Shown: in pieces, positions 4,456 through 25,637 of the stretch | Layout of the letters: the number at the start of each line of letters is the position of its first letter | Numbering within the stretch: the first letter of the stretch is position 1 | DNA from: Sabellastarte sp. h YS-2021 | Lineage: Eukaryota > Annelida > Polychaeta > Sabellida > Sabellidae | Direction: 5' to 3' | Length of the DNA: 64,000 nucleotides | Assembly (NCBI GenBank): GCA_964017235.1 | Contig: OZ024928.1 | Location: forward strand, 153,784,881 to 153,848,880 | Notes under the pieces: generated by a model | Told to the model about the DNA's origin: nothing | The model's database searches: none | Seen by the model: the letters and a program-made list of their open reading frames with translations, nothing else | Position numbers and translations under genes: made by a program

Positions 4456-5313
4456 ATAAGTGGACTGAGGATTGCATCATGCGATCATTTCCAGATTTTC
4501 AAAAATACAAGTTTTATGATGCAGGGTTTTGTTATTCTCACATCACTATTACAACCAGAAGAACAAAAATGTCCAGAAAATATACATATAGTGAAGAAAA
4601 AGATGGTCAAGGTTGTGTCTGCACCAGGTATTTATTTAAACAATGTTGGACATTTACAATATTTACTTTACCTATGCTGCTCACAAACCAATAGGGTTTG
4701 TTTCAGATTCAGACATCAGCTGTCAGACATGGAAACTATTGGCTAGAAGTGTTTTCTTTCTGTGGCAGTCTGTCCATATGGCAGACTCTGTCAACAATGT
4801 ACATTCAGTCTTGGATGATCATATTGGCCATCTGGTGTTATCTGTGAGCAAAAGAGTATCAATTGATGTCACAGAGGATAATTTCCCATGAAGAATGTCT
4901 GAAGATGGAGACTTACTTGGCATGGTACTTATACATACATTGCATTGTTCACAAAATGTAGAACCTCAGACTGAGACATGGGGGTTGAGAGAAACTTAAG
5001 CCCTATTCCTCATCTCCAGATTAATAGCCCACCTTTAAATGTCAGTATATCACACCGAATTTAGCAAGAAATAAATGCGTCCATAATTTCTAGTGTTTTA
5101 GAGGGAAAACTAGTTATCCACCTTTCATTTGGTTGTGGTGAAAATGAGCGAAAACCACTTGCATTGCTAAGAACCAGTTATTAAACATGTCTATATGTTA
5201 CACCTTTATTTTTTTGAGAAATGGACTTTACTTAGCATATTAACGTGACACCTTTGTGTCAGTGTATCTGATTGGCTGAGAGCTATGCTAATCTGTGTAT
5301 ACATGTTGGCTGT
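4456..5313. other. Spacer before the LTR element, no gene recognised
   Basis: Overlapping plus-strand frames of 76 to 112 codons at 4356-4891 have no recognisable domain, and the first starts inside the SINE. I treat them as chance. Confidence 0.5.
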
Positions 5314-5317
5314 TCTA
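5314..5317. repeat. Target-site duplication GTTC (low-coordinate side)
   Basis: GTTC directly abuts the outer edge of the LTR here, and the same four bases abut the other LTR at 27149-27152. A 4-bp duplication fits integrase-mediated insertion of a Ty3/gypsy element and shows the two LTRs belong to one insertion. Confidence 0.8.
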
Positions 5318-5620
5318 AAGTATAAACTCACCAGGAATACTGTGTCCGCTGTCACTTGGCTTTCACAGCAAACACTTGACAAGATATTCACAATATATTT
5401 ATACACAGATTATATTATGAACCTGTACTGCTAGATCAGCAGCAAAGGCTAGCAACTATTTTACTTTATATTTGTGACCATGCACATTGGCTGTTAGAGC
5501 TAGACTGACGCTATATTTGAAAAGGGCAGACTAACTCACTTCTGTGTCCTTGACCCCTGACCTAGTTGTTGGGAATAGTGGATACTAAACATCGGCGCCG
5601 AAACACCGGATTTCACCACA
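5318..5620 (-). repeat. 3' LTR of the TatD-carrying retrotransposon
   Basis: This 303-bp repeat matches 26838-27148. About 165 bp next to 5620 are nearly identical in the two copies, with a one-base run-length difference; the other half carries substitutions and small indels. On the minus strand it starts TG and ends TA rather than CA. It contains 'aaatataaag', a possible TATA-like element, but no promoter can be proved by eye. Confidence 0.85.
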
Positions 5621-5630
5621 TTCCACCCTG
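5621..5630 (-). promoter_or_regulatory. Polypurine tract (plus-strand primer site)
   Basis: On the minus strand the purine-rich AGGGTGGAA immediately precedes the TG that starts the 3' LTR, which is where the plus-strand DNA primer should lie. It is short and has one T, so the call rests mainly on position. Confidence 0.55.
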
Positions 5631-5719
5631 TTCTGAAAAAGGCCAAGGACAACCATTTTCAGGTCACCACAGACCACCCTAAATGCATCGGATGCTTATC
5701 GATGCAACCTATTGCTCCT

Positions 5720-7306
5720 TTATTTTAGTCCGTAGAGACGGGCTGCGTTCTCGGACGTCTTCGTGAGAACCTCCGCCAAGCCTAAACCCTTCAATTCAGC
5801 AACTCTTCTGGCTATAGCTTCAATGCCATATGGGGAGTTGAACCTATTGGAGAGATGCTCTGGAGCTTTCAAATATGGAGAATCCGTTTCCAAGAGTATC
5901 TTTTCCATCGGCAATTGTTTGATGACATCATCCACTTCCATATGTCTTTCTCGCCGCAGTATCAGAGCGGTGAACCCAAACATGACACTAGGAAAGCTGT
6001 CCCTCCATTTGATCATTTCCCGGACTCCTCCATTGTAACAGTGTCTGTGGATTCTAGCATTTTTTGCCACATCGTCTTTCAGAACAGATGACATTACGGC
6101 CAAACACATATCACTGGCATCCCTTGACTTATTGTCACCTTCACGGCAGTGGATCACCAATACTTTTGACCATAATTTTTTGTCAACGTAGAATCGGAGT
6201 AGATCCTTCAGCACCCGTATTTGGTGGTCATTGAATTTTGAGTAGCCTTCAGAGTACTCCATGCCCATCTCGCCGATTCCTACGCAACGGGGATCCTTTT
6301 CTACGGCGGACTTTACCATGTCAAGTTGTCTTTGAGAGACATACTTTGCTTCCTTTGGATGTACACCGTAAGTGAAGGATAATCGGTGATCCCTTTTGTA
6401 TACAACCATATCCTCCCGACTTGGTACCCCATGGCAGAAGTTACACACAGCATGTTGCAGGCGAACAGGTGTCTGTGGCATGGGCCCATTGTTCAGGATA
6501 GATTGAAGAGCAGAAAAACCTGCCACTGCCCTGATTTTGTCAAAATGTAAGTGTGAGTCGACAAATCCAATTTTCTGCGATTCATCACATGACAACAACC
6601 TCTGTTTTCTTTGTTCCCACTCGCGATCACCATATCTTTCCCCAATGTCTTCCATTCGCGGTGGTAAAATTGGTTTTGGAGGTGGTTTGATCAAAACTTC
6701 TTTGAAGGTTGGTTGAGGTGGATCCTCCCATTTTTCCTCACGCACCCTAACGCTCATGAAACGATCCATGCACATTGTTCCGTCTAGCAGTTGGTTGATG
6801 ATTTCAGTACTGGTCATCACTGGGGGCTGATATGGACGGAAAGTTGGTGGTGGAGTGTGTCCTTCACTTTCAGGCATTGCTAAAACAGATGTTTCTGTGA
6901 CCTGTGACGTTGCACTTGTGGAGGTTGATGGTTGATTCTGTGCTAACACCTCATCTACCTGTCTGCAAAGCTCATCTGCATCCGGAATTTCTGACACATT
7001 CTGTTCTGTTTCCAGATCAAGCTCCATTGGCTCTTCTGTCGGTGCACTCTGAGCTGATGCAGTTGCCTCCTGAACTTGAGCTAGAACGGTTTTCTTGAGA
7101 ACGTTCTTCTGTCCAGCAACAAATTCAACTTTTCGGTCACTTGACTGGGTTGGCTCTCTCACCTTCTTGACCGTCAATGTGGCAGTTGTTTCAGAGGCGC
7201 TCTCTCCCAATCTAGTTATTTTTACCTCAAAGTTGGGATTTTTCACCTGAACACGCTCTTCACCTATTTGGCTTAGGACAAATGCTGCCAGGCGCCAGTG
7301 AGCCAA
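5720..7306 (-). CDS. TatD-like metal-dependent nuclease domain (third ORF of the retrotransposon, C-terminal part)
   Basis: The frame's last 280 residues form a TatD-family domain of the amidohydrolase type; relatives are 3'-5' DNA exonucleases or AP-type nucleases. Counting from 7306, the metal-binding set is complete: H252/H254 in FVDSHLHFD, E346 in GIGEMGMEY, H386 in VIHCREG, H422 in HRHCYNGG and D475 in LLETDSPYL. The C-terminal signature around NSPYGIEAIA is also present. The preceding 240 residues are low-complexity and acidic or proline-rich. The listed first codon is TTG, and the frame overlaps the upstream ORF by 47 nt, so it is probably the continuation of 7260-8777 after a +1 shift. 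It lies between integrase and the polypurine tract, within the LTRs. Nuclease fold is confident; substrate and role are unknown. Confidence 0.85.
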   Translation of the reverse strand: MAHWRLAAFVLSQIGEERVQVKNPNFEVKITRLGESASETTATLTVKKVREPTQSSDRKVEFVAGQKNVLKKTVLAQVQEATASAQSAPTEEPMELDLETEQNVSEIPDADELCRQVDEVLAQNQPSTSTSATSQVTETSVLAMPESEGHTPPPTFRPYQPPVMTSTEIINQLLDGTMCMDRFMSVRVREEKWEDPPQPTFKEVLIKPPPKPILPPRMEDIGERYGDREWEQRKQRLLSCDESQKIGFVDSHLHFDKIRAVAGFSALQSILNNGPMPQTPVRLQHAVCNFCHGVPSREDMVVYKRDHRLSFTYGVHPKEAKYVSQRQLDMVKSAVEKDPRCVGIGEMGMEYSEGYSKFNDHQIRVLKDLLRFYVDKKLWSKVLVIHCREGDNKSRDASDMCLAVMSSVLKDDVAKNARIHRHCYNGGVREMIKWRDSFPSVMFGFTALILRRERHMEVDDVIKQLPMEKILLETDSPYLKAPEHLSNRFNSPYGIEAIARRVAELKGLGLAEVLTKTSENAARLYGLK

Positions 7307-8777
7307 TGTGGCCCAATGACGCGACGCAGTTGGGTGGACTGACTTCAGGTGTAACTGTTAAGTCTTCTTTTTTCACCCGTCTGTTAAATTCACGCATCAG
7401 ACCGCGATCTTCGTCAGTGGTAGCGATGATCATCTTTTTGGGGTCAGGGTAGAGCCGGTCCTTGCGAATTTTCGTGATCAAATCATCCAAAGTTTTACAC
7501 CCTAAGAGATTTTGGATCGTGGTTGTAAAGTTCACAATGGACTCCATTCTCACCTCATTTGACATTTCAACCCATGTCATGAATCCCTCAGGGAGATGTC
7601 GTCCTATGACGTGTCTTCTCATGTGGGACTGAGGCTTCCCGCAACCCTTCATGAAACATGTTGGCCTCCTTTTGTGTTTTCTGGGGACTTCATCTTCCTT
7701 TAATGGTTCTGGAGCCCTTCTTTTCACTGGCATTTTGGCAGTGCTTGATGAAGAGTGGCCTTCCTTCCTGGGCACTTGTTTTTCCTCAGGCATTGACCTT
7801 GTGGGCATCTTTTTTGACTTTTTGGAGCGCACAACAGTCCATTTGTCGGGTTGCACCATGGTGTAGTCACTTTTTGCTTGTGTAGGTCTAGCGGGCAGAG
7901 CTTGTGGTTTCCTTTGAGAGGTAGCATACTCCCTCCTTGCCTGACGAAACTCAGCTTCTTCTTGGGCAACACCATAGATTTGTCTCGGTGCTGTTTGCCC
8001 ACTAGATTGAGATACTGGAACAGCCGCTGGAACCGGTGCCACTGCTATTGTAGCGGATGCAGCCGGTTGTACTGGCACTGCTCGAGTTACCTGTATTGGA
8101 GCTCCCAGGGAAGCTGATGGTGCCGACGCGGACAAACCCTGTCGAGCCATCCTGCTACCTATGTCCCTGAGACAACGCTCCATCAGGAGAGCCTGGTTAA
8201 ACGGTTCCATCCTATTTGAAGGATGGTACACTCTTTCTCTGATCTTCTCTATGCTCGCTAAATCAAATATCTGATGCAGCATAGAGACTACGGCTTCATC
8301 CTGTGCTGGTGTCGTTTGACCTACCGTGGATGTTGATGCCCCAACCCTTGGTTCACTTGTTTGACCTATCGCTGGCACATTTGTTGTAGGTCTTATTGTG
8401 GATACTGTTTCTGGCGCCCTAATAGCACCAGAATTTCGGTTCCACCTGGTCCAATTACTTTGTGAAGGGCCACTCACCTGTGACCTGTTGCCATCGCTGT
8501 ACTGGCGATGACTACCCTCACTCGATTGAACATCGTCGCTTCGTGGGCGATGATAGTTGGAGGTTACTTGCCTGTATCTTGGATGACCATCTGCCTCCCG
8601 GCGAGGATCAGCAACCCCTCTTTCCCACCTTACCTCAAAATTCCTAGCCTGACCTGGATAGACATCGCTCCGACGACGCTGATCCCTGTCATGGCTGTCC
8701 CTTGGTGGCCGGTAATCGCCTCTTCGATTGTGGCCACCACGACTCCTACCTCGGACAAAACGCTGTACACGCGGCAT
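7260..8777 (-). CDS. N-terminal part of the TatD ORF: RGG-rich, low-complexity, C2H2 zinc finger
   Basis: ATG at 8775-8777, TGA at 7260-7262, 505 codons. Residues 1-40 are arginine/glycine-rich (RFVRGRSRGG), suggesting nucleic-acid binding. Residues 100-300 are Ser/Thr/Ala/Pro/Gln-rich. A basic patch (about 316-371) leads into a C2H2-like finger with C374, C379, H389 and H394 (CFMKGCG...HVIGRH). The rest is a helical stretch without a family I recognise. The frame stops 47 nt into the overlap with the TatD frame; reading both parts requires skipping one base. That may be a mutation or a programmed +1 event at AGG-TGA. The start lies 118 nt downstream of the pol stop and directly after a splice-acceptor-like sequence. 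DNA or RNA binding is inference. Confidence 0.75.
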   Translation of the reverse strand: MPRVQRFVRGRSRGGHNRRGDYRPPRDSHDRDQRRRSDVYPGQARNFEVRWERGVADPRREADGHPRYRQVTSNYHRPRSDDVQSSEGSHRQYSDGNRSQVSGPSQSNWTRWNRNSGAIRAPETVSTIRPTTNVPAIGQTSEPRVGASTSTVGQTTPAQDEAVVSMLHQIFDLASIEKIRERVYHPSNRMEPFNQALLMERCLRDIGSRMARQGLSASAPSASLGAPIQVTRAVPVQPAASATIAVAPVPAAVPVSQSSGQTAPRQIYGVAQEEAEFRQARREYATSQRKPQALPARPTQAKSDYTMVQPDKWTVVRSKKSKKMPTRSMPEEKQVPRKEGHSSSSTAKMPVKRRAPEPLKEDEVPRKHKRRPTCFMKGCGKPQSHMRRHVIGRHLPEGFMTWVEMSNEVRMESIVNFTTTIQNLLGCKTLDDLITKIRKDRLYPDPKKMIIATTDEDRGLMREFNRRVKKEDLTVTPEVSPPNCVASLGHIGSLAPGSICPKPNR

Positions 8778-8805
8778 CTGTAGATTAAGGAAGAAATAAG
8801 ATAAC
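8778..8805 (-). promoter_or_regulatory. Splice-acceptor-like sequence before the third ORF
   Basis: On the minus strand a pyrimidine-rich stretch (TTATTTCTTCC) runs into CTACAG, immediately followed by the ATG of the TatD ORF at 8777. This matches a metazoan 3' splice site placed where retroviruses and errantiviruses put the env acceptor. A spliced subgenomic mRNA is inferred, not shown; the donor was not identified. Confidence 0.5.
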
Positions 8806-8894
8806 CCTTTAACATGTTTTCACATTGTATGCACAAGGAATGGTTTAGTATCTTATAATATCCCACAACCTGAACTGAACCATGCAACAACTAT

Positions 8895-9160
8895 TTAAGT
8901 TTGGTAATCTGCCAGGTATTGGGGCCTCTTGCGTTCTCTTCCTGCTCTGGTCGGTGGCAGGGGATCTGGAAAACATGCATTACTTTCTAAAGGGTCGTGG
9001 ATTTCAGGCAAAGGGTTTTCTTCTAATTTTTCTAATTCATCTGGGCTTATATAGTCATTACCATCTACAGAACATTCTTCGAATAACTTATCTAAACCGA
9101 GAGATTCTGTATCAGGCTCACCATTATCTTCATTCAGCCCTTGTAATAAGCTGCTCCTTT
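8895..9160 (-). pseudogene. C-terminal tail of Pol/integrase, out of frame with the main integrase ORF
   Basis: After the integrase ORF stops at 9130, another minus-strand frame continues the protein: an acidic stretch rich in Glu/Asp, then PLPPTRAGRERKRPQYLADY and TAA at 8895-8897. A basic RxRKxPxYL-type end is usual for Ty3/gypsy integrases. The shift maps near a six-A run (minus strand) around 9160-9170, so a one-base indel or assembly error is the likely cause. Confidence 0.65.
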
Positions 9161-10728
9161 TTTCTCCTCAGCCAAAGTGGAACATCCCGATCTAGGCATG
9201 GTTTTAACCTGTCGTGATGTAACACATATGTCTTCTTCCTGTCTGCTATTCTGAAAAGCACTGGAGAAACGACCTCTACCACTAAGAATGGTCCCTTCCA
9301 TACCTTTTGTAATTTTGGACTTTGACCAACTTTTTTAGCGGAATCAAGTGTGTAAACTAAATCTCCGGCTTCATAAGATTGAGTTTTGAGTTTAAGGTCA
9401 TAATCCCTTTTTTGACGCATTTGAGATGACTCCAATGTGTCCCTAGCCAAAGTATGTACTTGTTTTAATATAGTTTTTAATTTAACTACATATTCAGCAG
9501 CGCTGTCATACTTCTGTTCTAGGCCCCCTATCATTAAATCAATCGGTAGCATAACTTCCCTACCAAGCATCATTAAGTTAGGAGTGAAACCAATATTCTG
9601 ATTAATGGTAGAACGGATTGCTCCAGCTAACTGCTGTAGGTGTTCATCCCACGTTTGTTGATTCCCACGTAAAAAACACCTAATTAACTGCAGTATTGTC
9701 CTGTTATATCGTTCTACCTGTCCATTTGAACGGGGTCTATACGGCGTTGTCCTAGTTTTAACAATTTGTAATAGATTACACACTGAAGTAAACAATTTTC
9801 CATCAAAATTTTTACCCTGGTCCGTATCTATTTCCAAAGGACACCCAAACCTTGAGATAAACCCATCAACCACACATTTTGCTACCTCTTCAGCCCCTTG
9901 GCGAGGAAGTGGAAAACATTCCAACCACTTGGTAAACTGATCTACAATAACAAGAACATATTGATTACCTTTTCTACTTGGCGTAAATGGTCCAAGAATA
10001 TCAATATGCACACGCTCAAGCGGTGCTCCTGCATGGTACTGTCCTAATGGAGCCTTTGGTTTCACAGTGGCCTTCTTGTTCTGGTTACAAGCACTACAAG
10101 ACTTAATAAATTGCTCGACATCATCAGTTAACTTATACCATGTATAGTGGCTTTTTATGCGAGCAATGGTTTTAGCAATACCCATGTGTCCAGTTAAAGG
10201 TATGTCATGGTTGAGTGACATTACTTTCTCTTTCAAACATTCCGGAATTACCAGTAACAATTTACCCCCTAATTGATCCTTCCAGTGATAATATAAAAGA
10301 CCATTTTGAAATGAAAGGTGTGTTTTGTTTCTATAAAAGTATTTAACATCCGGGCTACAAAGAAAAAGTTCATTTTGTTCAGGTTCAATGTCATTACTAA
10401 CCCAATGAATTAATTTATTCAAACTGGAATCAGCCAATTGGGCTTCCTGCAATTCTTGATGGGTATAACCAGACAACCAACTGTTTGGAGATTCATTCGG
10501 TCCATTCGACACAAGAGTTTTGATTGCTAACGGAACTACATCGTCAACATCCTCATTAAATCGAGACCATTGATTATGAGCTCTCGCACAGTACTTACAA
10601 CCTTTACATGGCAACTGGGACACTTCCGACCCGGCTTTATAGCAATCACAGAATGAATAGTCGTCAGGAATTCTCGACATTCCATCTGCATTCCCATGTT
10701 TGATTCCGGGGCGATGTACTACAGTCAT
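9130..10728 (-). CDS. Pol: integrase (with the end of RNase H)
   Basis: A 532-codon frame. It starts inside the RNase H/connection region (HRPGIKHGNADGMSR). Then follow the H2C2 zinc-binding module (H174, H181, C211, C214) and an rve catalytic core with D243 (HIDILG), D303 (DTDQG) and E339 (GQVERYN), giving exact DD35E spacing. The C-terminal part carries a GPF/Y-type motif (KVWKGPFLV), typical of Ty3/gypsy integrases. It inserts the cDNA and would produce the 4-bp duplication seen here. It is in the same frame as the RT ORF upstream, separated only by TAG at 10753-10755. The catalytic triad is intact, but the premature TAG and downstream frameshift probably inactivate the copy. Confidence 0.93.
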   Translation of the reverse strand: MTVVHRPGIKHGNADGMSRIPDDYSFCDCYKAGSEVSQLPCKGCKYCARAHNQWSRFNEDVDDVVPLAIKTLVSNGPNESPNSWLSGYTHQELQEAQLADSSLNKLIHWVSNDIEPEQNELFLCSPDVKYFYRNKTHLSFQNGLLYYHWKDQLGGKLLLVIPECLKEKVMSLNHDIPLTGHMGIAKTIARIKSHYTWYKLTDDVEQFIKSCSACNQNKKATVKPKAPLGQYHAGAPLERVHIDILGPFTPSRKGNQYVLVIVDQFTKWLECFPLPRQGAEEVAKCVVDGFISRFGCPLEIDTDQGKNFDGKLFTSVCNLLQIVKTRTTPYRPRSNGQVERYNRTILQLIRCFLRGNQQTWDEHLQQLAGAIRSTINQNIGFTPNLMMLGREVMLPIDLMIGGLEQKYDSAAEYVVKLKTILKQVHTLARDTLESSQMRQKRDYDLKLKTQSYEAGDLVYTLDSAKKVGQSPKLQKVWKGPFLVVEVVSPVLFRIADRKKTYVLHHDRLKPCLDRDVPLWLRRKKEQLITRAE

Positions 10729-10752: not shown

Positions 10753-11841
10753 CTAACGGGCTAACTGTCCCTCGATATATTTGAATCTGAGCAGCCAAGT
10801 TAGACTGTTGTGATCAGTTCTTAACAGAAATTTACGACCTAAAAGGTAATGCCTGAACTGTCTTGTGAACCTAACTACGGCTAATAATTCCTTCCGGGTA
10901 ACACAATATTTCCGTTGTTCCGGGGTTAAGACATAGCTACCATAACAGATAACTCGTTCGTGTCCATCTTGAATTTGTGATAGCACTGCTCCAATAGAAT
11001 AATTTGAAGCATCGGTATCTAAAACAAAGGTATCTTCCGAATTTGGATAACCTAATATCGGTGCAGAGATCATTTTCTCTTTCAGCTGATCGAAAACTTC
11101 TTGTTCCGGTTCACCCCAGTAGAAAGTTGCACGACTACCGGTTAACTTATATAACACGGACGTTAGTTTAGCAAAATCTTGTATGTGTTCCCGATGGTAG
11201 TTCACAAAACCTAAGAATTGTTCAACTTCTTTTACCGATTTCGGTACAGGCCATGATTTCACACGCTGCACATTCTCCGGATTTACTGATACTCCATCAG
11301 AACTAACGACTCTACCGAGAAATAAAGTTTGTGTATGAAACAAACTACACTTTTTCGGTTTTAACTTAAGGTTATGTTTCCTAAATCTCTCAAAGGTTAA
11401 TTGGAGGTTTTTTAGATGATCTTCAAAGTTTTTCCCAAGAATAATTACATCATCAATATAAGCGAGTACCTTATCCCAAGTTAACCCATGCAACACAAAC
11501 TGAATTACTCTCTGAAATGTTGCAGGCGCATTACAAAGTCCAAAAGCCATTCGCTTATGTTCGAATAACCCAAACTTTGTAATAAATGCGGTTTTATGCC
11601 TATCTTTTTCGTCTATTTCGATTTGCCAGTATCCGCTGGCCATATCCAACGTTGAAAAATACTGGTTTCCAGAGAGTTGATCCATGCATTGAGAGATAGA
11701 TGGTAATGGAAACAAATCTTTTTTGGTTTTGGAATTAAGACACCTATAATCAATACAGTATCTTACGGTGCCATCTTTTTTCCTAACCAGAACTGGAGCA
11801 GAGGCCCAGTCTGAGGATGACTCAGTAATGACTCCTGTATC
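10753..11841 (-). pseudogene. Pol: reverse transcriptase and RNase H, 5' end cut by a hAT MITE
   Basis: From the MITE edge at 11841 the frame carries RT palm motifs: RPxxxxDYRxLN-type region, LDMASGY (first catalytic Asp), FGLCNAPATFQ and YIDD (two catalytic Asp), then the connection and an RNase H with DTDAS, the RKELLAVV glutamate and RTDHNSL. The ATG at 11715 is internal, not a true start. The frame ends at an in-frame TAG (10753-10755) where related elements usually have Trp in an LARW-type motif, so a TGG-to-TAG change is likely. The upstream RT portion lies beyond the MITE at 12348 and higher; removal of the MITE plus one target copy (506 bp) brings the two parts into the same frame. 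Confidence 0.92.
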
Positions 11842-12339
11842 TAGGGATGGGTCGGTATGAAAAATATGTAGATCGGGATGTCGCTAATGCAAAACCGTAC
11901 CGAATTCGGGACTCCGCGTTTTAGTTCACCCCAAACAAACATGGACGTTCTCTCAACGACATCGCAATAAAAGCTCATAAATGGACAAAATATGTGATAA
12001 AAACGTATAATGTCTTCATATTTCTGGTTTCTTTCTAATATTTTAAGTTTTCCTTTATTTATATGAGTTGACAAGCGAAATTGAGGTTATAAAGTGTCGT
12101 AACCAAAACATGGCAGTTCTGCTCAACGTAACGCTTAGTGCACTATAAAAGTCTGTAAATGGACGAAAATATGGGATAAAAGCTTATAATTTCTTCAGAT
12201 TTTGGGTATGTTTCTGATATTTTAACTCTTCCTTCCATTATATGTGCTGACAAGCGAAGTGGCGGTTGTAAAATCTCATCACGGTATTTCAGTAAAATGC
12301 TCTCGACACCGAGATACCGGACCTACCGACCCATCCCTA
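11842..12339. mobile_element. hAT-family miniature element inside reverse transcriptase
   Basis: A 498-bp insert has terminal inverted repeats TAGGGATGGGTCGGTA / TACCGACCCATCCCTA and is flanked by a perfect 8-bp duplication CCTGTATC (11834-11841 and 12340-12347). Eight-base duplications with TAGGG-type ends are typical of hAT transposons. It has no transposase. The interior looks like two diverged copies of a roughly 180-bp block, each with 'ataaaagc/gtctgtaaatggac' and 'tgacaagcgaa'. It splits the pol ORF. Confidence 0.9.
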
Positions 12340-12347
12340 CCTGTATC

Positions 12348-13290
12348 CAACATGAGTTTGAGGTTTTCCTCTTCCTCATTTTCGAACCCTAACGGAGTCC
12401 GTCGCATTGGCTGCTTGACCGGCCTCTCCTCTCCAGTATCTATGACATGCTTAATTTCAGTGAAGCAACCAAGATCATGGCCCCCTTTTGAGAAAATATC
12501 TTGGTATTGGATAAGCAAATCTTTGACCCGATTCGCCTTATCTTTGCCTAACCCTTTCATTGACCTCTCTAATAATCCTTGCAGGTGCTCTGGGAGTTGT
12601 TGATGACTTTCCAGTTTTTTAATGTGAATTGTTTCATCATCCAATATTGCATCTGGAGGAATCGCATATCCTAACACATGACCTTGACGAAGAACTATGT
12701 TTCTGTCAGTGTCATTCACTAACTGAATTGGTACGGATTCAGCGGTTCTCACCAGAAGATTGGGCAATAAAGCTCCTTTATTAGAACCACTTGATATAAC
12801 AACCATGTCTGTGTTCAATGGCATTTCACTTTTAACCATTATTCTTAACACAGTATTTGATGGGATATGAATTTTCTGATCAAGAATGATCTTATGAGTG
12901 TTAAATTCATCACCATCTGGTGTTTTTAAATGTGTCATATCTTGTTCAACTTTATTGAGAGTGAACGTGTATTTATTGAAATTCAAAACTGCGCCAAAGT
13001 TGCACAGAAAATCTATTCCAATAATTATAGGGTCTTTAATTGCTGCCACCAACATCTTCCATTTCATGGAAGGCTGACTATTGAAAGAGATTGGCACATC
13101 TTCTATCAACCAGCCATACAAATCCATGCTATCACTTATTCCTGATAACTTGTATTTTTTAGTTAGGAGAGGTTTGTTGGGTAATTTTTCATACACATCA
13201 AAGCTCATTAAGCAAACATCGGCACCTGTATCCAATAAAGCTGTGGTGTGAACACCATCAACTGTACATGGAATTAAGGCACACAAATTA
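12348..13290 (-). pseudogene. Pol: aspartic protease, linker and start of reverse transcriptase
   Basis: Below the Helentron boundary at 13290 the frame encodes a retroviral-type aspartic protease with the catalytic motif LLDTGADVCLM, a flap/core region including IIGIDFLCNFGAV (the hydrophobic-hydrophobic-G motif) and a linker, then the RT N-terminus (DIFSKGGHDLG, a common Ty3/gypsy lead-in). The open frame as it stands, 12279-13355, starts and ends in foreign DNA: the first about 22 codons belong to the Helentron and the last about 23 to the hAT MITE. The protease would be made as part of Gag-Pol after the -1 shift at 16301-16307. Confidence 0.9.
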
Positions 13291-13689
13291 TTAAGCGTCC
13301 CGCAAGGGACGCTTGTTTGTGTATGGGAGAGCTTCAGGCTCCGCCGGCTGCGCATTTTGTTTTCCTTATAACTCTGTAACCGTTAGGCGGATTCTTTTCA
13401 AATTTGGCAGGTTTAGGCAGTAGCCTTGGGGAATTTTTTTGAATATGCTGCAGTGACATTTCAACCAATCAGAGAGGTCACATGACCAAAAATGTCTTTT
13501 TTCGATGGGGAAGCTTGTCTGGATGATAACTTGAAAGGAATTTTATCAATTCACCTGAAACTTGGCAAATACATTCATTCTATTAAAATCTGGAAATCAT
13601 TAGATTTTGGCATTGATTGGTCAAGAAATGGCCGAGTAATTAATAATTAATTAATCATTACGAATTTTCCAAATAAGGAAAACACAAAA

Positions 13690-14620
13690 ATGCTTATATC
13701 TCGAAAACCGTGCTAGATAGAGCGATTTCGACGAAATTTTTTACCCACAGGGTATCTCTGCGGAGTAGTTTTCCCAATTTTCAAAAAAATTTTGTCTCAC
13801 CCAAAATGGCGGCCATTTTGAATTTTCGAAATTTTCGCAAAAATTGCAAAACACAAAAATGCTTATATCTCGAAAACCATGCTAGATAGAGCGATTTCAA
13901 CGAAATTTTTGACCCGCAGGGTATCTCTGCAGAGTAGTTATCCCAATTTTGAAAAAAAAATTTTCTCGCCAAAAATGGCGGCCATTTTGAATTTTCGAAT
14001 TTTTCGCAAAAATTGCAAAACATAAAAATGCTTATATCTCGAAAACCCTGCTAGATAGAGCGATTTCGACGAAATTTTTGACCCACAGGGTATATCTGCA
14101 GAGTAGCCATGCCAATTTTCAAAAAAATTTTGTCTCGCCAAAAATGGCGGCCATTTTGAATTTTCGAATTTTTTGCAAAAATTGCAAAACATAAAAATGC
14201 TTATATCTCAAAAACCCTGCTAGATAGAGCGATTTCGACGAAATTTTTGACCCACAGGGTATCTCTGCAGAGTAGCCATGCCAATTTTCAAACAAAAAAT
14301 TTCTCGCAAAAAATGGCGGCCATTTTGAATTTTCGAATTTTTCGCAAAATTGCAAAACACAAAAATGCTTATATCTCGAAAACCGTGCTAGATAGAGCGA
14401 TTTCGACGAAATTTTTGACCCACAGGGTATCTCTGCAGAGTAGCCATGCCAATTTTCAAAAAAATTTTATCTTGCCAAAAATGGCGGCCATTTTGAATTT
14501 TCGAATATTTGCGCAGAAATTGCAAAACACAAAAATGCTAATATTTCAAAAACCGTGCTACATAGAGCGATTTCGACGAAATTTTTTATCTTCAGGGTAT
14601 CTCTGCAGAGCAGCTATCCC
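13690..14620. repeat. Satellite array 1, about 5.5 units of 169 bp
   Basis: The phrase 'aaaatggcgg' recurs at 13803, 13972, 14141, 14310 and 14478, a period of 168-169 bp. Each unit also has 'cttatatctcgaaaaccgtgctagatagag' variants and 'cagggtatctctgcagag'. Diverged further units lie at about 15715-16060. Repeated minus-strand frames here are an artefact of the monomer. Confidence 0.92.
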
Positions 14621-14621
14621 A

Positions 14622-15700
14622 AAGAGCTTTTACTTGGTGAAGTTTCAGACCCATGGCTAATTATTCACCTACTCAAAATGAGTAAATGCGAATTATCTCT
14701 AAAAGTATTGCAGATAGCCAATTTTTCTCAAATAACTCATTCACCTACTTTTGGGAGAGCTTTCACTTGGTGAAGTTTCAGACCCATAGCTAATTACTCA
14801 CCTACTCAAAATGAGTAAATGCGAATTATCTCTAAAAGTATTGCAGATAGCCAATTTTTCTCAAATAACTCATTCACCTACTTTTGGGAGAGCTTTCACT
14901 CTGTGAAGTTTCAGACCCATAGCTAATTACTCACCTACTCAAAATGAGTAAATGTGAATTATCTCTAAAAGTATTGCAGATAGCCAATTTTTCTCAAATA
15001 ACTCATTCACCTACTTTTGGGAGAGCTTTCACTTGGTGAAGTTTCAGACCCATAGCTAATTACTCACCTACTCAAAATGAGTAAATGCGAATTATCTCTA
15101 AAAGTATTGCAGATAGCCAATTTTTCTCAAATTAATCATTCACCTACTTTTGGGAGAGCTTTCACTTGGTGAAGTTTCAGACCCATAGCTAATTACTCGT
15201 CTACTCAAAATGAGTAAATGCGAATTATCTCTAAAAGTATTGCAGATAGCCAATTTTTCTCAAATAACTCATTCACCTACTTTTGGGAGAGCTTTCACTT
15301 GGTGAAGTTTCAGACCCATAGCTAATTACTCACCTACTCAAAATGAGTAAATGCGAATTATCTCTAAAAGTATTGCAGATAGCCAATTTTTCTCAAATAA
15401 CTCATTCACCTACTTTTGGCAGAGCTTTCACTCTGTGAAGTTTCAGACCCATAGCTATTTATTCACCTACTCAAAATGAGTAAATGCTAATTATCTGTAA
15501 AAGTATTGCGGATACCCAATTTTTATCAAATACTCATTCATCTACTTGTGGGAGAGCTTTCACATGGTGAAGTTTCAGACCCATAGCTAATTACTCACCT
15601 ACTCAAAATGAGTAAATGCGAATTATCTCTAAAAGTATTGCAGATAGTCAATTTTTCTCAAATAACTCATTCACCTACTTTTGGGAGAGCTTTCACACAC
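14622..15700. repeat. Satellite array 2, about 8 units of 134 bp
   Basis: 'ggagagctttcac' recurs at about 14753, 14886, 15020, 15153, 15287, 15420, 15553 and 15686. Units are highly similar to one another. The same monomer forms the arrays at 25640-26220, 29130-29575, 35159-35590 and 37350-38630 in other Helentron-like elements. Confidence 0.93.
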
Positions 15701-16260
15701 GAAAATGAAAAATTGTGAATATCTCGGAAAAGCTATTTCTTGTGCTTTAATGCTCGGCGGGAGATATATACCATGGCAGTGGTCTTCACAAAAATTTTTG
15801 TCTCCCCAAAAATGGTGGCCATTTTGAATTTTCAAAGTTTTTGCAAAACACAAAAATGCTTATATCTTGAAAACCGTGCTATATGGAGCGAACTCAACAA
15901 AATTGTGGACCTGCTGGGTATCTCTGCAGAGTAGTCATGCCAATTTTCAAAATATTTTTGTCTCGCCAAATATAGCGGACATTTTTAATTTTTTTATTTT
16001 TTGCAAAACACAAAAATGCTTATATCTTGAAAACCGTGCTAGATAGAGCAGACTGCGCTGACTTTGGTTGCCACAACAGTATAAGGCTAGAAACGAAGCA
16101 TTTTCTTAATACTTTAGCACTCACCTTTATATCCTTTTCGGGACGCTTTGTTTTTGCTATGCAAAAACATTTTCTTTTTTTTTTGCGAGCGATCCTCTAG
16201 TTATAATTTGTTTTTTGCAGCTGTTGACATGCGTAAGACTGTCCACCTTTACACTCATTC

Positions 16261-16307
16261 AGGGGTAAAGCAGTGACTTCACGATCACCCCTTCTCAGTA
16301 GTTTAAA
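16261..16307 (-). promoter_or_regulatory. -1 programmed ribosomal frameshift signal between gag and pol
   Basis: In the gag frame the minus strand reads CCT TTA AAC TAC TGA. TTTAAAC (16301-16307) is a canonical X-XXY-YYZ slippery heptamer in the correct phase, six to twelve bases before the gag stop (TGA, 16295-16297). After slipping one base back, translation enters the frame that leads to protease. Eight bases downstream, AGGGGT pairs with ACCCCT, and GTGA pairs with TCAC inside it, giving the expected stem-loop. Site, phase, stop and new frame all agree. Confidence 0.85.
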
Positions 16308-18181
16308 GGCGTAAAATGGACTTGTTGTTTCCCACCTGCCACATTTTTTGGTGGTGGTGGACTCCTGACAGTTTTATAATTTGAACCTGGGGATCTCCTA
16401 GGAGACTCATCTGATGTATGCTCCTGTCTCTCTAATCCCCTAGATTGTCTGGATCTAGAATTTGGACTATCTTTGTCCCTTTGATCCTGTCTATAACGCC
16501 AATCCATGTTATAGGATCGATCATAGTCCTGCCTTTGGGAAGTCTGCCACCTGGGAGTATAGTTGTATCTGGGACTCCCTGGTGATGAGAAACGCTTCCT
16601 TCTGGGACAATCACGTACAAAGTGGCCTGGATCCCCACATTCATAACATCCGGGGTTCCTGCTTGGGGAATATGGACCACTCCTCTGAGGGCTCTGTTGC
16701 TTAGACATGACTTCTATGAGTTGTGTGATAGATTTGGTTAGGTCTTTGATTTCGGTTTCTGAGGCTGTGGTGGTTGACACCCTCGGCTTCTCATGGACCT
16801 TCCTTTTAGCAGTGAAGGTTCTCACTGATGGCTCATCAACTGAACTAGTTTCTGAAACATCAGAGTCGCTGTAAACCATTGGTTGCAAAGGCTTGACTTT
16901 CCTGACAGAGCCTTTCTTGCCAAGGATAGCTTTCTTCACTTGCTGTTCAGTCTTTACACAACTGTAAGCTTCTTCCAAAGTTGAAGGACGTTTCACACCT
17001 GCTGCAACAGCGGCGGCTTTGTCACGACAACCTTTCAGGAATGCCTCAATAAATAAGGAACTATGCAATTCCATCTGTTTGGAATCTGGATAGGCACTCA
17101 AGATCAACTTCTGTAAGCGAGCAAGATACTTCTCCAGATTTTCATCCTCACGTTGTTCAGTTGAAAGAATCTCCCATCTTATGGTTGATGGAGAATCATT
17201 TCTTTCAAAGAACTGCTCAAATTTCAGTTTTATGCCATCAAAAGTGTCTTTGACTGTCTCTGGGAGAACACTAAAGTATTCTGCCGCTTCTTTTCTGAGA
17301 CACATGGCGAAGGCGTCAGCTTTATCGAGCTCTGTCCATTGCATTCTTCTTGCATAAGCTTCGAATTGACTGACAAAACCTCGCCAGTAAGTTCCATCAA
17401 AAGACATCTTTGGCAACCTCAAATTCCTACTTCTGTGTACCGGCCTTCTTCCAGATGAGACCCGTTCATCAGATTCTGATGGACCCTGCGAGATGTACAC
17501 TCGTTCCTGATCACTAGATTGATCACTCCTACAGTCATCAGACTCCACATTTCTGTTAGGGATCCTAGGCGAATGATACTTCACCTGGTATTGTTTTGGC
17601 CTTGATTTGTATTGGGTTGGTGTCTGCTGGTTTACACCTTTACCCCCAATATAACGACCATCCAGTGTTTTGGAGTTTATAGTGTGCGTGATATTATCTA
17701 ATGCTCTGTACCGGTTAGATTGAACAGGTGTTGATGACCTGCAATGTTTTTGGAAAGTGAACTGCAGAACTTTAGGTTCAGATTTGTTGGACACCGAATC
17801 CCTGCAGTTAGAACCCATGGCCGTTACAGCTGGTTCCTTGCAATAAGTTTCGGTATTGGGTACATTCAAATTATGTGTAACAAGAGAGGCATAATTATGT
17901 GGTTCCAACAGATCTAATCCTGTCCACTCCAGGTCTTTTTCCCAACCTGAAGGCATGATGTAATCCTCATCAAAATTACATTTCATGCTATTTATACTGT
18001 CTTCTATTCTCCTTTTAAGAATTCCAGAACGGCTTTTGAAGTAGTCGTTCATGAAAGACAGATTCTGCTCCTTCATGGCCTGAGCCTTGACTAAGAGATG
18101 ATCTCCTTCTTCCTGCATGTCCCTGATGCGTCTGTTTTGCTCTTCATCTTCCCTGAGATATCTGACAAGGAATGACTCCTT
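16295..18181 (-). CDS. Gag: capsid and zinc-knuckle nucleocapsid
   Basis: Continuous with the frame above 18182 except for a TAG. The first about 220 residues are polar and probably disordered; next is a retrotransposon capsid-type domain (from about FVSQFEAYARRMQW to AYSCVKTEQQV) and a CCHC zinc knuckle CYECGDPGHFVRDC, followed by an Arg/Ser/Pro-rich tail. It packages the RNA and forms the particle. The ATG at 18118 is internal to a longer frame (codons upstream to the TAG read VRYLREDEEQNRR), so I take the segment from the stop. Ends TGA at 16295-16297, just after the slippery site. Confidence 0.88.
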   Translation of the reverse strand, partial: KESFLVRYLREDEEQNRRIRDMQEEGDHLLVKAQAMKEQNLSFMNDYFKSRSGILKRRIEDSINSMKCNFDEDYIMPSGWEKDLEWTGLDLLEPHNYASLVTHNLNVPNTETYCKEPAVTAMGSNCRDSVSNKSEPKVLQFTFQKHCRSSTPVQSNRYRALDNITHTINSKTLDGRYIGGKGVNQQTPTQYKSRPKQYQVKYHSPRIPNRNVESDDCRSDQSSDQERVYISQGPSESDERVSSGRRPVHRSRNLRLPKMSFDGTYWRGFVSQFEAYARRMQWTELDKADAFAMCLRKEAAEYFSVLPETVKDTFDGIKLKFEQFFERNDSPSTIRWEILSTEQREDENLEKYLARLQKLILSAYPDSKQMELHSSLFIEAFLKGCRDKAAAVAAGVKRPSTLEEAYSCVKTEQQVKKAILGKKGSVRKVKPLQPMVYSDSDVSETSSVDEPSVRTFTAKRKVHEKPRVSTTTASETEIKDLTKSITQLIEVMSKQQSPQRSGPYSPSRNPGCYECGDPGHFVRDCPRRKRFSSPGSPRYNYTPRWQTSQRQDYDRSYNMDWRYRQDQRDKDSPNSRSRQSRGLERQEHTSDESPRRSPGSNYKTVRSPPPPKNVAGGKQQVHFTPLNY

Positions 18182-18907
18182 CTAAGACTTCAGTTCAGAT
18201 ATTTCATGCACAGATGCATCAAGTACTTGGCAAACTTGTTCCTTCTCTTCAGTCTGAGCAGATTGTGCAGGTTGTGTCATTGCAGTCTTCAACTGTCGAA
18301 CATCAGAAGCTAATGTTTCCAGCTGTTCCTGATGACTGTGTCCTTCAGACTGCAAACTTTCAACACTGCAAGTCATGGTTCCAACTTGTTGTTTAAGTTG
18401 TACGATGTCACCCTGCATGGGCTGGCACGTCTCGTGTATCCTCTTATGGACGACTGTCAACTCTCGTGGCACTCTGACACGGAGTTGAGCGTCACTGTCA
18501 GACACCTTTGCGACATCCCCTCTAATACTCTGTTGGCTTGATTGGAAATTTTCACGAATAAGCGCAATTTCTCCTTCACATGCACTAATCTGTTGTTGAC
18601 AATTACTAAAATTGATCAATGATTCAGTGCTGTGTTGGTAAGTATCGGATCTAACTTTATCGATGCTTTGGTTCACTTTGCTGGTTTTTTCTCGAACCAT
18701 GGTTTTAACCGTGACCATGTCATTTTCAACTTTGTTTTTATGGTCTTCAAGTTCAGCTCGATTTTCAGCAACACTGGATTTGATATCGCTAATGGTGTGG
18801 TTGACACCCTCAATTTTGGCATTGAATTCGGATTTGCAATTTTCATGCGCAGTGTCTGCTGAATCCTTCTGAAGCCTGCGATACTTCCGAACGTAAATCG
18901 CAAACAT
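18182..18907 (-). pseudogene. Gag N-terminal coiled-coil region, part 2
   Basis: A heptad-rich, charged frame (repeated E/K/Q with I/V/L every 3-4 residues) that looks like a long coiled coil. It is in the same reading frame as the capsid ORF and ends at a single TAG (18182-18184). The upstream part continues in another frame (18843-19598) with overlap at 18843-18907, implying a one-base indel. Originally these were probably one Gag. Coiled coils at the Gag N-terminus could drive multimerisation; that is inference. Confidence 0.65.
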
Positions 18908-19598
18908 CTCTCTTTAACACATTCATACTACTTTCCACCCTGTCAACATTTTGTTCATATTTTTCCTGTTGTTTCGGAATCTCATCAGTTACATGTTTTC
19001 GCAATTGTTCTAAGTCTGATTGAGTTGTTTTTTGCGCATCTTCTAAAGTCGTAACTGTTGACGTGACTTCATCGAGACTTGATTTCATACCATCGATCTT
19101 ATCTGAAAGCGATGAAGTTACTAATCTAAATTCCTTAATAATACGACTTTCAAAAACAAGCAAAGTACTAACCGTTACGAGTTCATTGGGTGCTCCGATG
19201 GGTTTTTCGTCGTGAAACGCGGTAGGTTTTGTATCAGTTCCAACATCTGATTGCAACAAAGTCGATTTAGCGTCGCAAATATCAAATTCAGTCTTTCCGT
19301 GCGATACAGTATTAACTGTATCAGTCTGGTATCCAAAATCGGCGCTAGACTGTACCGATAACAGACTTGACTTATCCAAACCTACAACTTGTTCAGAAAA
19401 TCGAATGTAATGTTCATCCAGAATTTTCTGAGTACAACTTGATGGAAAACCAAGTTCCAGAAATTCCAATTCGGTCATGGTTCCACCTAATGCTTTTCTA
19501 CGGGCTAATATTACCTTAACCCTTTCCACACCAATACCTGGGACTTGTAATAAGTCTTCCCTACTGGTATGTTCAATGTGTAATGGCTTGGCAGCCAT
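18843..19598 (-). CDS. Gag N-terminus: helix-hairpin-helix and coiled coil, part 1
   Basis: ATG at 19596-19598 opens with MAAKPLHIEHTSREDL followed by VPGIGVERVKVIL, a helix-hairpin-helix resembling the ComEA/RuvA-type motif (leucine, xPGIG, xxxAxxIL), known for sequence-independent DNA contact or as a protein interaction fold. A second helical block to about residue 70 completes the domain. The remainder (about 110-250) is coiled coil. It is the first ORF downstream of the leader. The frame is lost around 18843-18907. Not a usual Ty3/gypsy Gag start. Confidence 0.7.
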   Translation of the reverse strand: MAAKPLHIEHTSREDLLQVPGIGVERVKVILARRKALGGTMTELEFLELGFPSSCTQKILDEHYIRFSEQVVGLDKSSLLSVQSSADFGYQTDTVNTVSHGKTEFDICDAKSTLLQSDVGTDTKPTAFHDEKPIGAPNELVTVSTLLVFESRIIKEFRLVTSSLSDKIDGMKSSLDEVTSTVTTLEDAQKTTQSDLEQLRKHVTDEIPKQQEKYEQNVDRVESSMNVLKRDVCDLRSEVSQASEGFSRHCA

Positions 19599-20636
19599 TT
19601 TGTCTATTGAAACGCAATAACAAAAAATTTCAGATTTAGATCAAAATGTGTAATTGTTAATTGTTAAAATAGCTAATATGTACTAAATTTGAATGTACTG
19701 AATCTGTAATTCAAAAATTAATTTTCATGCAAATATCTGAAAATATGTCTGGAATTTTCCTAATATTTTTTCCAAGATGCAACATGCAATTTATTAATAT
19801 CTAAAAGTAATATTATTCACTATATCAAATATATTGTAGAAGTAAATAAATTTTGATGAAATAAATTTTCAATACTAATTCACAAGTACCTGTAAGAGAA
19901 ATACTGTATTTTGTTGAACAGATGATCTGAAATCGCTGAACAACTTGACTACAAACTTAAATAACAAAATCAAATCAAACAGTTTAAAATAAATTTAAAT
20001 CAGAATTTTGATTTGGGCTTAATTATTCAAAAGCATGTACGATTCTAACTAGGTTAGTAATACATACAAAATATCAAAGTAATAAGTTTTCAAAAAGTTT
20101 AAATTATATTTTACCAAGTTACTTTAATTCAATGTAAATCCATTAACTTTTCAAACTAATTCAGTAAACTTTGCAACTTTTACTTTCACTGATAGAAATT
20201 ATTTTACTTCAACACATAAACGTGGCAAAATTCTAAATGTCTCAGACTATATCAGTTTCCACCAAATTATATTCTAAAATGGTACGCTGCGCAGTGACCT
20301 TGGACACGTCTTTTGCGCAATGCTTGAACGGCGAATATAGAACGGTAAATAAAGCACGCTGTTGAAATCTCGTACATGGTCCCTTCGCGTACAATTGTAA
20401 ACAAACGACTCGTGGTTAAAATATTTATAAAATTGTTATTTTTTGCTTGATTTTAATAAATAGCATATCGTTTTAAAGCTTACAACAAAGTGAAAGCATC
20501 TACAATGACAATCTCCCAATATTTCTTTACAGATTCTATGAAAATAGAGTAACAAATAGCCTATATTTTTACAATAGATATCACTATGTATGTGGTATTG
20601 ATGGAACAGCCAACGTGGCGTTGGATTTGTTTTGAT
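19599..20636 (-). other. Leader region of the LTR element, very AT-rich
   Basis: No coding frame or clear motif. On the minus strand this is the 5' untranslated leader between the primer-binding site and gag, interrupted upstream by the DIRS insertion at 20637. Confidence 0.55.
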
Positions 20637-20928
20637 TTTTATTGCGAAAAATACACTTACCATTTCCTGACCATTGCTATATGTTGGTGCCATCCAACTC
20701 ACTGGCCAACGTTGAGAAACGTTTTAAGAAACCTTAAGAGGCCAGTGAGTGAGTGTGAACTAGCATGTCCCCCTAGTGGTCATGTGACCACGCTAGTAAA
20801 CAACCTTCATTATTTTTGTTGGCCATCCTAGAGTGTGGATGTTGATTTTCAATTCTCATTTTATTAAGTTTTTTGGACTTCTGGTGCGTTTTTGGAGTTC
20901 TGTGATAAGACATTATAATGTGTATACA

Positions 20929-22300
20929 ATGTCTTCTCAGGACAAAATTAAGGAAAATAGCACAGAGGAATTGTGTTTTTGTGGCCATTTTATGGGGATT
21001 GATGACCACTATTTGTAAAATGGCGGTATTGATGTTTCGTTGTTGGATGAAGACGACTCTTCAATTCACATTTCTTCTTATTCTTCAAAAGGCTCGTGTT
21101 ACATGAGGATGGGACAAGTTCTTTTATCAATTCTGTTTTTTCACGAGATTGAAGATTTACAATAAAACACTGAAACTGTCGGCAGTCTAGTAGCTCCGGC
21201 AGGGACAGTTTACAGGTTGCTAGGCAACCAAGGGAGTCGCCATGACAGAAATAATTCGATTGATATAAACCTGATCATTCGTCGGGTTCTAACAACCAGG
21301 CGTTTGGAGGCTATTTTTCACTTCGTACTTCTCAGTCGAACAGGACGTCAAGAAGGAATTCCCCATGGAGGCAGACATCTTTTTTCACAACAGGAGGCAT
21401 CATTGTGGAGAAGTTCCGAGTACACGTCTGAACTGTCACTGCGATTAACTTATCCGGTGAAGTTCAGTCGGAACGTTTGCACGGAGGAAAATACCTGCAT
21501 GACGTCATCCGAAGACAATCGAGTTTCCATACCTCCCAAAAGGTCTGGAATCGGGTTGTCAGATGACCGGAGTTGTGTTTCATCTCACAAATTAGCTCTC
21601 TCATTCTGCGGGTTATGTAGGGTTTCTACTGGCAACCGGCACCGGTACATGAGACCTATATGTACCCATTGTCAGATTTTGTTCAACAATACAGGTTCTC
21701 TGTGTTTCTTGCAGCATAATCATGTCAAATCTTGGAATTTAATAATTTGGAGTTATCTAGCAGTACCTCTGTCAGGAGGTCTTCAAGAATTTAAGGATTA
21801 ACAGGAATCTCATAGAATATCCAGTACTACCTTGGACTGTGTACAGTATTTTCAATTACAGTCTTCAATGATCCTGGATGTTTTTTGGACAGTGCGTTGA
21901 CCAGTTCTTCAACTTGTTACTCATCAGGAGTGTTACAAGTCTTACTTTTCTCTATCTTATCTCTTAGATGATTTTGGTAGAATAAAAGTGCATTTTTCAC
22001 TCTTAATGAGGTTTTCTCCTGCTGTACTCTTGGCAGATGTCTCAGGAAAACTTCATTTTGTGATCTTGGTTGTATAATGTTTCTTCTGTCTGGGAAGGAG
22101 CAAACTCCTACACATGGTTACAGATGGGCCCCAGGGCAGTTTTTTGTTCCCATTATGATAATTAATCCTCCAACACTGTTACAAAACTCTCCTCCTCTGT
22201 AAGACTTAGAGGGGTTAGGAGTAATCTTTAGGAGGAATGTTTCTCCAGTAGTGGCAGATATTCTACACCTTACATCTCAACATAGTAAGAGGATAATTTT
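20929..22300 (+). pseudogene. DIRS gag remnant (copy 1)
   Basis: Starts ATGTCTTCTCAGGAC, then reads FCGHFMGIDDHYL, which parallels the CGHVMALFDNHQKC start of the intact DIRS Gag at 60694. Frame is lost within 30 codons. A 194-codon frame at 21217-21801 probably descends from Gag but shows no motif beyond position. Confidence 0.55.
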
Positions 22301-23179
22301 TTCAACCATACTTTACCTTTCACAGAAGCAACAATAGCAGGAAGGAGTACTTATTCATGTTCCTAAAGCAGTTGTGGACATGTGTTTTAAGAATAAATGA
22401 ATAAAATGCGGGAGATATCAGTTTGCATAAAGCTGTGTATGGAATGATCGACAAAAGGGCGATAATACCAGTGAGATGGTGATATCCCTACAATTTTACA
22501 CTTTATCGGTTGTGATAAGCTGGGAAGAGATGGCTACCACTAATAGTTGAGGTCAGGTAATAAACCTTTACATGTACCTTAATTTCGCATAGTTGGGATT
22601 TTCGCAATTAATTGTTACTAGTAAGTGAATGGGTGTGTCCACTCGTTTCTTACAGTTGCATTCTTTCGTAGCCGGATTCACGCAATTCTTATCTTCACTT
22701 CCCTGTTGATGACAATTCACACCGGTTCACTGCCTGTTTGCTATGTTAGTCCATGGTGAGAATGTGGCATCTATAAGAACGCATCATGCTTTACCAGTAT
22801 AGACCATTTCATTGCTTTGCTCTTGGAAATGGTTTATTTTCGACTTTTCTATGGCATCAACGGATAGTGAACCTGATGGCTGCAGTAGAAGGCATTGGGT
22901 GTCACCAGCTTATAAAAAAAAAAAAAAAAAAAAAACCAGGATTTTTAGTTTGGATTGCAGATTCCACCTTAGGGTACATCTTTACTCATAGCAAAGCATC
23001 TTCTCCGGCTAATGGTTTCTAAGGAAGCCATTTCTTTGGTGGCGGTATGGCTTCATAGGAGAAAACAGTGCCATTGGGTTATTTGTTTATCAGGTAACCC
23101 CAAGGCTATCTGCTAATGTACCACAGATACCACACATAATACACAGATAATGTACCAGTTTTTCTGTTCTCAGGTTCCA

Positions 23180-24260: not shown

Positions 24261-24469
24261 CTCAGGTGACTCAAGATGATCACCTACAGGTGCAGAATCA
24301 TCATGATTGCACCAGGATAGCCAAAGATTCTTCAGGTGATTTAGAAGATGACCACCTTCAGTTGCAGATTCATCATGATTGAATCATGATGGTCATGGTG
24401 GATGTTCTTGGTTGTGGGACCTGGTAAATCTATGCACATCTGAGGCTTCTTTGTGGTGAACTTCTCAGA

Positions 24470-25075: not shown

Positions 25076-25637
25076 TTTTCAGGTCAACTATCTTATCTTG
25101 CTGTGGGCAGACTATCATTTTGACTGAGGAGAAGTCAAATTCTGACTCTCAACAGCAGCGAGTCAAAGCAAGAATCTTTAGGTTTTAGGATAGTGTTTCT
25201 GTATATGAATTTTTATATGCATGTTACTGGAAACCATAATTTTTTTACCAATTTTCAGTCTCACCTGCTTGGTTTGCTTGTGGTCAGACTTTGATATTGT
25301 GTTCTACAGTTTGTTATCTTATAAGTATATGCGTGATACTTATATTGATACTTTAGTATGCATTTGCAGCTGTATATCTGTCATACTATCTGTATTTATA
25401 TTAGGCAGAATTGTTGACTTCATTCAGACTTGGAGTTACACAATATGCTGATGACACTTCCAATATTTGTGTCACCTGTGTGGGTGTTGGATGTTTGTCT
25501 AGATACAGCATTCAACGGTGGCAATAACTGGCAATTTGTGAGAACTTCAACTACATACTATGATTTAGGCGATCTGTATGGTATGTGGTGACTGTTGGAA
25601 GTTTATATGTTGTTGTATGCATGTAAATTTCAATGTA

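Follow-up and report, generated by a model that had tools for sequence, protein, structure and literature searches.

Is the gene for a TatD-family nuclease that lies inside a long terminal repeat (LTR) retroelement of the polychaete Sabellastarte sp. h YS-2021 a working part of that element, or did it come to rest there by accident? The element occupies positions 5312-27152, minus strand, of a 64,000-nucleotide stretch of contig OZ024928.1 (the whole of which is here called the window), and both of its ends are present. The initial annotation had placed a TatD domain after integrase (INT) and before the purine tract, inside two LTRs with a matching 4-bp target duplication, and this arrangement holds: GTTC is found on both sides of the element, and the gene is represented by open reading frames (ORFs) at 7260-8777 and 5720-7306. 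We think it very probable that the element belongs to a Ty3/gypsy-type lineage in which a class II (HxH) TatD nuclease gene, predicted to be catalytic and probably expressed by splicing, occupies the env position as a standing part of the element. We take it to be such a standing part, and not a private capture, because about five families share TatD beside pol, because TatD has diverged together with reverse transcriptase (RT), and because it is under purifying selection.

The TatD gene, with integrase on one side and the purine tract on the other, is the third gene and stands in the place of env. In the window copy it is divided between two overlapping minus-strand ORFs, but a 1017-amino-acid protein (P0021, from a cluster of 115 members at 90%) spans both, with 91.5% identity in the first half and 98.3% in the second. 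Because P0021 covers both, the ORFs are regarded as a single gene whose reading frame is broken near 7300 in the window copy, and there are therefore intact copies (P0021 and some other protein clusters may originate from the window's own genome). The N-terminal half (7260-8777) encodes a basic RGG/RS-rich tail, a small helical module, a linker, a C2H2 zinc finger (Cys and His codons at about 7596-7658) and a helical domain, so that the RGG and C2H2 parts noticed ahead of TatD by the initial annotation are indeed there; the C-terminal half (5720-7306) encodes a linker and the TatD domain (about 5723-6571). In a profile search the latter matched PF01026 at E 2.6e-37 (129 bits, against a cut-off of 27), and alignment bears out the earlier claim that every metal-ligand position (HxH, E, H, H, D) is occupied, which makes this a class II domain. 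The TatD domain of P0021, 99% identical to that of the window, was predicted to adopt a TIM-barrel fold like those of solved TatD structures; ligands and predicted fold together suggest that the protein would be catalytic. The ligands are retained in nearly all of the aligned proteins, among which six diverged ones average 46% domain identity. In a tree, 18 C2H2-TatD rows fell on one side of a branch (96/94) and 10 other TatD rows on the opposite side.

The remainder of the protein is less easily named. A Pfam search at E 0.01 recognized TatD in the C-terminal half and no domain in the N-terminal one, and gave no homology to envelope or fusion proteins. A CUE profile gave a weak match to residues of about 155-215 of P0021 (E 0.02; 15.0 bits, against a cut-off of 21.1) in one of the three proteins tried. 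The middle helical domain, predicted jointly with the N-terminal module, had no Foldseek match at E 0.001, the VIA rows covering mainly the first module. Two other proteins should be mentioned here. P0030, a TatD-family protein on a 5.9-kb contig, has a precomputed PF08719 (NADAR) domain; and P0011, filed as 'MAG: TatD family hydrolase [Sedimenticola sp.]', shows the C2H2-TatD architecture and is probably animal DNA in a symbiont bin.

How widespread is the gene? In the genome of the window (1.79 Gb, 647 contigs), PF01026 gave 649 candidates, of which 147 were scored, all above cut-off, and the window's TatD protein gave at least 84 matches from 923 candidates, 82 of them scored (some of the 84 are fragments of one copy, and the counts are lower bounds). 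Near-full-length matches, spanning at least 518 of 528 residues at 93-100% identity, number 43 with the window included; 39 of these have no internal stop, and 22 lie in stop-free open frames of at least 1000 amino acids. Twenty TatD places, ranks 121-140 of the 146 score-ranked places outside the window, were fetched together with flanks of 7.45 kb (upstream) and 1.65 kb (downstream). In 12 of them (L009, L010, L014, L016, L017, L018, L019, L021, L022, L026, L027, L028), which represent about five families, RT and INT are both found upstream in the orientation of TatD. In six of the 20 (L009, L010, L021, L022, L025, L027) the window's LTR, at full length, begins 103 bp past the last TatD codon, exactly as in the window, and at a seventh (L013) only its first 23 bp match, at the same distance. 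Other families are more distant: by best segments, the identities of RT and INT (to the window) and of TatD (to P0021) were 82, 73 and 53% for L014, 80, 64 and 42% for L016, 78, 77 and 50% for L017, and 44, 57 and 27% for L028.

Fetching 6 kb further upstream at three places showed that TatD is also enclosed by LTR pairs elsewhere. At L010 the two 321-bp LTRs are identical, with CTAT on both sides; at L027 the LTRs are 99% identical, with ATAC on both sides; and at the divergent L014 a pair is 97.7% identical over 260 bp. By their coordinates, the elements at L010 and L027 each measure about 12.8 kb. Two outcomes that the initial annotation had named as refuting its reading, absence of TatD from all other copies of this LTR family and a gene private to one insertion, thus did not come about, and a private retrocopy is ruled out by TatD in other copies of the LTR family, by the 84 matches and by the LTR pairs elsewhere.

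Some places show more unusual arrangements. At L021 and L022 (C4:179602315 and 179614348) TatD copies stand in tandem, 12.0 kb apart, and the two elements seem to share an LTR, because the one that follows TatD in L022 precedes a primer site. At L020 an LTR that shares 90% identity with the 3' LTR of the window (8695-9009 of the L020 locus) follows a divergent TatD (49% to P0021), either in a mixed copy or as a neighbouring solo LTR. At C2:3520142-3536350 there are five TatD places on one strand, about 3.85 kb apart, one with an internal TGA; the spacing is too small for a full pol in between, and a domesticated or amplified gene cluster is possible. Four TatD places at C19:30984941-31064358, 26.2 kb apart and each with one internal TAG, resemble a decayed copy arrayed in tandem.

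The TatD gene is under purifying selection. Over 283 codons in eight copies (28 pairs), mean dS (synonymous divergence) was 0.068 and mean dN (non-synonymous divergence) 0.009, giving a dN/dS of 0.13, far from the value near 1 that the initial annotation had named as refuting its reading, although single pairs among the eight reach 0.85 where dS is about 0.005. In five of the eight, RT gave 0.13 and TatD 0.12 (L013 and L025, which have no RT, and L021, whose RT is interrupted, were left out of the RT comparison). Close pairs in other families gave 0.13-0.45, and between the window and L014 the TatD dN was 0.41 with dS saturated. RT and TatD distances over nine loci were correlated with r 0.992 (Mantel p 0.0001), a value to which near-identical copies contribute much, and from which L017, L018, L021 and L028 were left out because of broken or gapped RT matches. 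Among four family representatives, pairwise identities were 77-82% for RT and 40-54% for TatD.

How might such a gene be expressed? Some gypsy-type elements have a spliced env as their third ORF, in the gap between integrase and purine tract and with a splice acceptor ahead of it. The TatD gene resembles these in its third-ORF position and in the predicted acceptor before it, but there the product is a membrane fusion protein, and here an enzyme. In the window the predicted 3' splice site TTATCTTATTTCTTCCTTAATCTACAG (8778-8804, minus strand), recognized from sequence features, ends at 8778, and the ATG begins at 8777. Acceptors of this quality (at least 16 of 20 pyrimidines, and no AG in the preceding 18 bases) account for 31 of 3851 YAG sites on both window strands, or 0.24 per kb per strand. 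One also adjoins the TatD ATG in L010, L021, L022 and L027, four of the seven fetched copies of the window's family; L017, from a different family, has CTTATCTTTTTCTTTTCAG directly before its ATG, and L014 and L019 have TTATTTCAG before theirs, with a weaker tract (10/20 and 11/20). The recurrence of an acceptor at the start codon, seen in the window, in four of its seven relatives and also in a different family, makes env-like spliced expression likely; the message for TatD would probably be a spliced RNA with its acceptor ending at the start codon.

Several observations weigh against this account of TatD as a standing, spliced and catalytic part of the element. Within the 7.45 kb upstream, four of the 20 places (L012, L015, L023, L024) lack any retroelement protein; at L020 an integrase tail is all there is, at L013 and L025 gag and protease occur without RT or INT, and at L011 gag shares the TatD strand, with RT and protease on the opposite one. 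A start with an acceptor was not found by pattern in three of the seven family copies (L009, L013, L025), nor was an acceptor of at least 14/20 pyrimidines at a start in L011, L012, L015, L016, L018, L020, L023, L024 or L026, several of which have open frames not long enough to include the gene start; and among 11 donor-like sites no splice donor could be singled out. A ligand has been lost in some family members (E835K in P0001, H741N in P0029). Very young pairs have dN/dS up to 1.1 (one is 1.08 at dS 0.006), with few changes each. The copies were, moreover, selected by TatD profile score, a choice that enriches for intact TatD and pulls dN/dS down somewhat, yet RT, which was not chosen for, gives an equal ratio.

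Could TatD be a host gene, or belong to some other mobile element, that merely landed in this insertion? The places without nearby retroelement proteins (4/20) and the tandem TatD cluster on C2, at 3.52-3.54 Mb, are what one would expect, but seven other copies keep the strand and the 103-bp distance to the LTR (with 23 bp of LTR left in one of them), LTR pairs with duplications of their own enclose TatD at L010 and L027, and TatD distances follow those of RT with the Mantel r of 0.992. This shared 103-bp context and the LTR pairs contradict such an origin for the window's family, and we consider it very improbable. It is scarcely credible that the gene is a functionless passenger: the window copy is itself broken, but TatD dN/dS is 0.13, the ligands persist in nearly all aligned proteins despite the 46% average domain identity of the six diverged ones, and 22 of 43 near-full-length places are in stop-free frames of at least 1000 amino acids. 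A neutral passenger is rejected on the TatD value, to which that of RT (likewise 0.13) is equal.

If TatD is thus a standing part of the element, the choice is between roles. The protein may be a nuclease of RNA:DNA hybrids or R-loops that aids replication of the element, by removing RNA pieces or trimming cDNA 3' ends. According to passages of PMC12709183, TATDN2 cuts RNA in R-loops; the RGG/RS tail and zinc finger are consistent with nucleic-acid binding, and the constraint on TatD equals that on RT. RT, however, already carries an RNase H, and kinship with TATDN2 is putative; we hold this role tentatively, as having somewhat less than an even chance. Alternatively, TatD might counter host defence, destroying sensed cDNA or small-RNA precursors or acting on host chromatin. 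It changes faster than RT (40-54% against 77-82% identity among the four family representatives), as proteins engaged in interactions often do, and the weak CUE-like module could bind ubiquitin; but that match is below cut-off (E 0.02, 15.0 against 21.1 bits, in one of three proteins), and the faster change may reflect only a looser fold or substrate. A defence role seems to us unlikely.

The rest of the element is of conventional Ty3/gypsy type, with an LTR pair, a short target duplication, a primer binding site and a purine tract, and with the gene order gag, protease, RT-RNase H, INT (features on the minus strand, apart from the duplication). The 5' LTR (26838-27148; 311 bp) and the 3' LTR (5316-5620) both start with TGTGGTGAAATCC and end with TATACTTTA, and are flanked at 27149-27152 and 5312-5315 by the GTTC duplication (plus strand). 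One base from the 5' LTR is the primer binding site TGGTACCAGAAGTG (26823-26836), presumably a match to the 3' end of tRNA-Leu(UAA); the site is identical in L010, L027 and L022, and L014 has its first 13 bases. A tRNA scan of the window found no tRNA. The gag ORF, with a CCHC zinc knuckle, is at 16295-18118, the aspartic protease ORF at 12279-13355, the RT and RNase H ORF at 10753-11715 and the integrase ORF (H2C2, rve and p58 C-terminal domains) at 9130-10728; the polypurine tract CAGAACAGGGTGGAA (5621-5635) adjoins the 3' LTR. The window's pol is fragmented, and what looks like the C-terminal tail of integrase is an open stretch that ends near 8893, in a frame different from that of the integrase ORF. 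Upstream of gag are two overlapping ORFs (18182-18907 and 18843-19598; together 18182-19598), with a coiled coil and a weak helix-hairpin-helix motif, the latter near the start of the first ORF, 18843-19598 (PF00633, E 0.0016, below cut-off), and followed by the coiled coil.

In the window copy the two LTRs are 21 kb apart. Related satellite arrays (133-bp and 169-bp units) occupy 13658-16050, between gag and protease, and 25632-26546, in the leader, as well as 35159-38633 outside the element, and a 5-kb unit occurs in direct orientation, 91% identical, in the leader (20636-25649) and outside the element (29577-34569). As two related copies are only about 12.8 kb long, these arrays and the 5-kb repeat explain at least part of the spacing. 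The first 160 bp or so of the LTR pair differ by one gap, and the remainder has all 30 substitutions (Kimura two-parameter distance 0.108 overall), an unevenness that suggests mosaic origin or conversion, and not age alone.

Is there any precedent? TatD is a new accessory-gene type for LTR retroelements, for which the nearest precedent is the DEDDy exonuclease carried as ORF3 by Juno and Vesta LTR retrotransposons of bdelloid rotifers (described in parts of PMC5408684). There too, the source's relevant passages indicate, a nuclease with its invariant residues kept is the third ORF, and is not envelope-like; but its fold is of the DnaQ-like DEDDy type and not a TatD TIM barrel, and the Juno and Vesta ORFs are described there as evolving within genomes without significant departure from neutrality, against the dN/dS of 0.13 found here. 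The AlkB m6A demethylase ORF of orchid Ty3/gypsy elements is likewise a cellular-type nucleic-acid enzyme that has become a fixed additional ORF of a large gypsy lineage, though a demethylase and in a plant host (PMC9289625, in excerpt). A full-text search of the open-licence PMC literature gave, in the excerpts returned, no report of TatD in a retroelement, and none was seen in the available portions of PMC6962438, PMC5408686 and PMC12754012. By text search, 'nuclease', 'envelope' and 'tatd' each occur 0 times in a survey of mollusc LTR elements (PMC6238403), 'TatD' and 'nuclease' 0 times and 'DNase' once in an annelid survey (PMC8556966), and 'nuclease' and 'DNase' 0 times in a further LTR-element survey (PMC8220671). 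No relatives were found in scans of viral and prokaryotic contig collections (viral_contigs, genome_contigs). A tblastn search with P0021 had hits in 19 phage and 57 plasmid records; in none of them did a single place span 80% of the query, and among the matches listed (five each) the TatD part alone aligned.

Among cellular TatD proteins, TATDN1 and TATDN3 are 3' exonucleases and apurinic/apyrimidinic endonucleases, and class II enzymes typically bind two metal ions (both from sections of PMC10085689). The same sections describe animal TATDN2 as of the HxH class with a long N-terminal extension, as in the element's protein, and TATDN2 is linked to R-loops and germ cells in passages of PMC12709183; it is, however, a host gene, and its kinship to the element's TatD is no more than a lead. 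It is likely that the element acquired its TatD gene by a putative capture from a cellular source. The basic tail and C2H2 finger most probably hold the enzyme on the element's nucleic acid, which the TatD barrel would cut with two metal ions. As substrate we would guess first at RNA in RNA:DNA hybrids, or at cDNA 3' ends, during or after reverse transcription; a counter to host defence is our second guess. More speculatively, and on balance somewhat improbably, an old animal branch of Ty3/gypsy may have replaced env with a spliced, zinc-finger-guided TatD needed for replication and kept in several families, and probably in other host genomes, with some hosts having retaken the gene (as tandem arrays) and with animal TATDN2, given its long N-terminal part, as a possible source or descendant.

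For annotation, the finding implies that TATDN2-like genes in invertebrate genomes may be retroelement genes. Part of the giant squid account (PMC6962438) names TATDN2 among the non-Hox genes of the Hox cluster, and this may be such a case, though we raise it as an example only. More generally, the extra genes of retroelements reveal the limiting steps of retroelement life, and the conservation of a nuclease under constraint equal to that on RT suggests that a step of nucleic-acid processing beyond those served by RT, RNase H and integrase matters to these elements.

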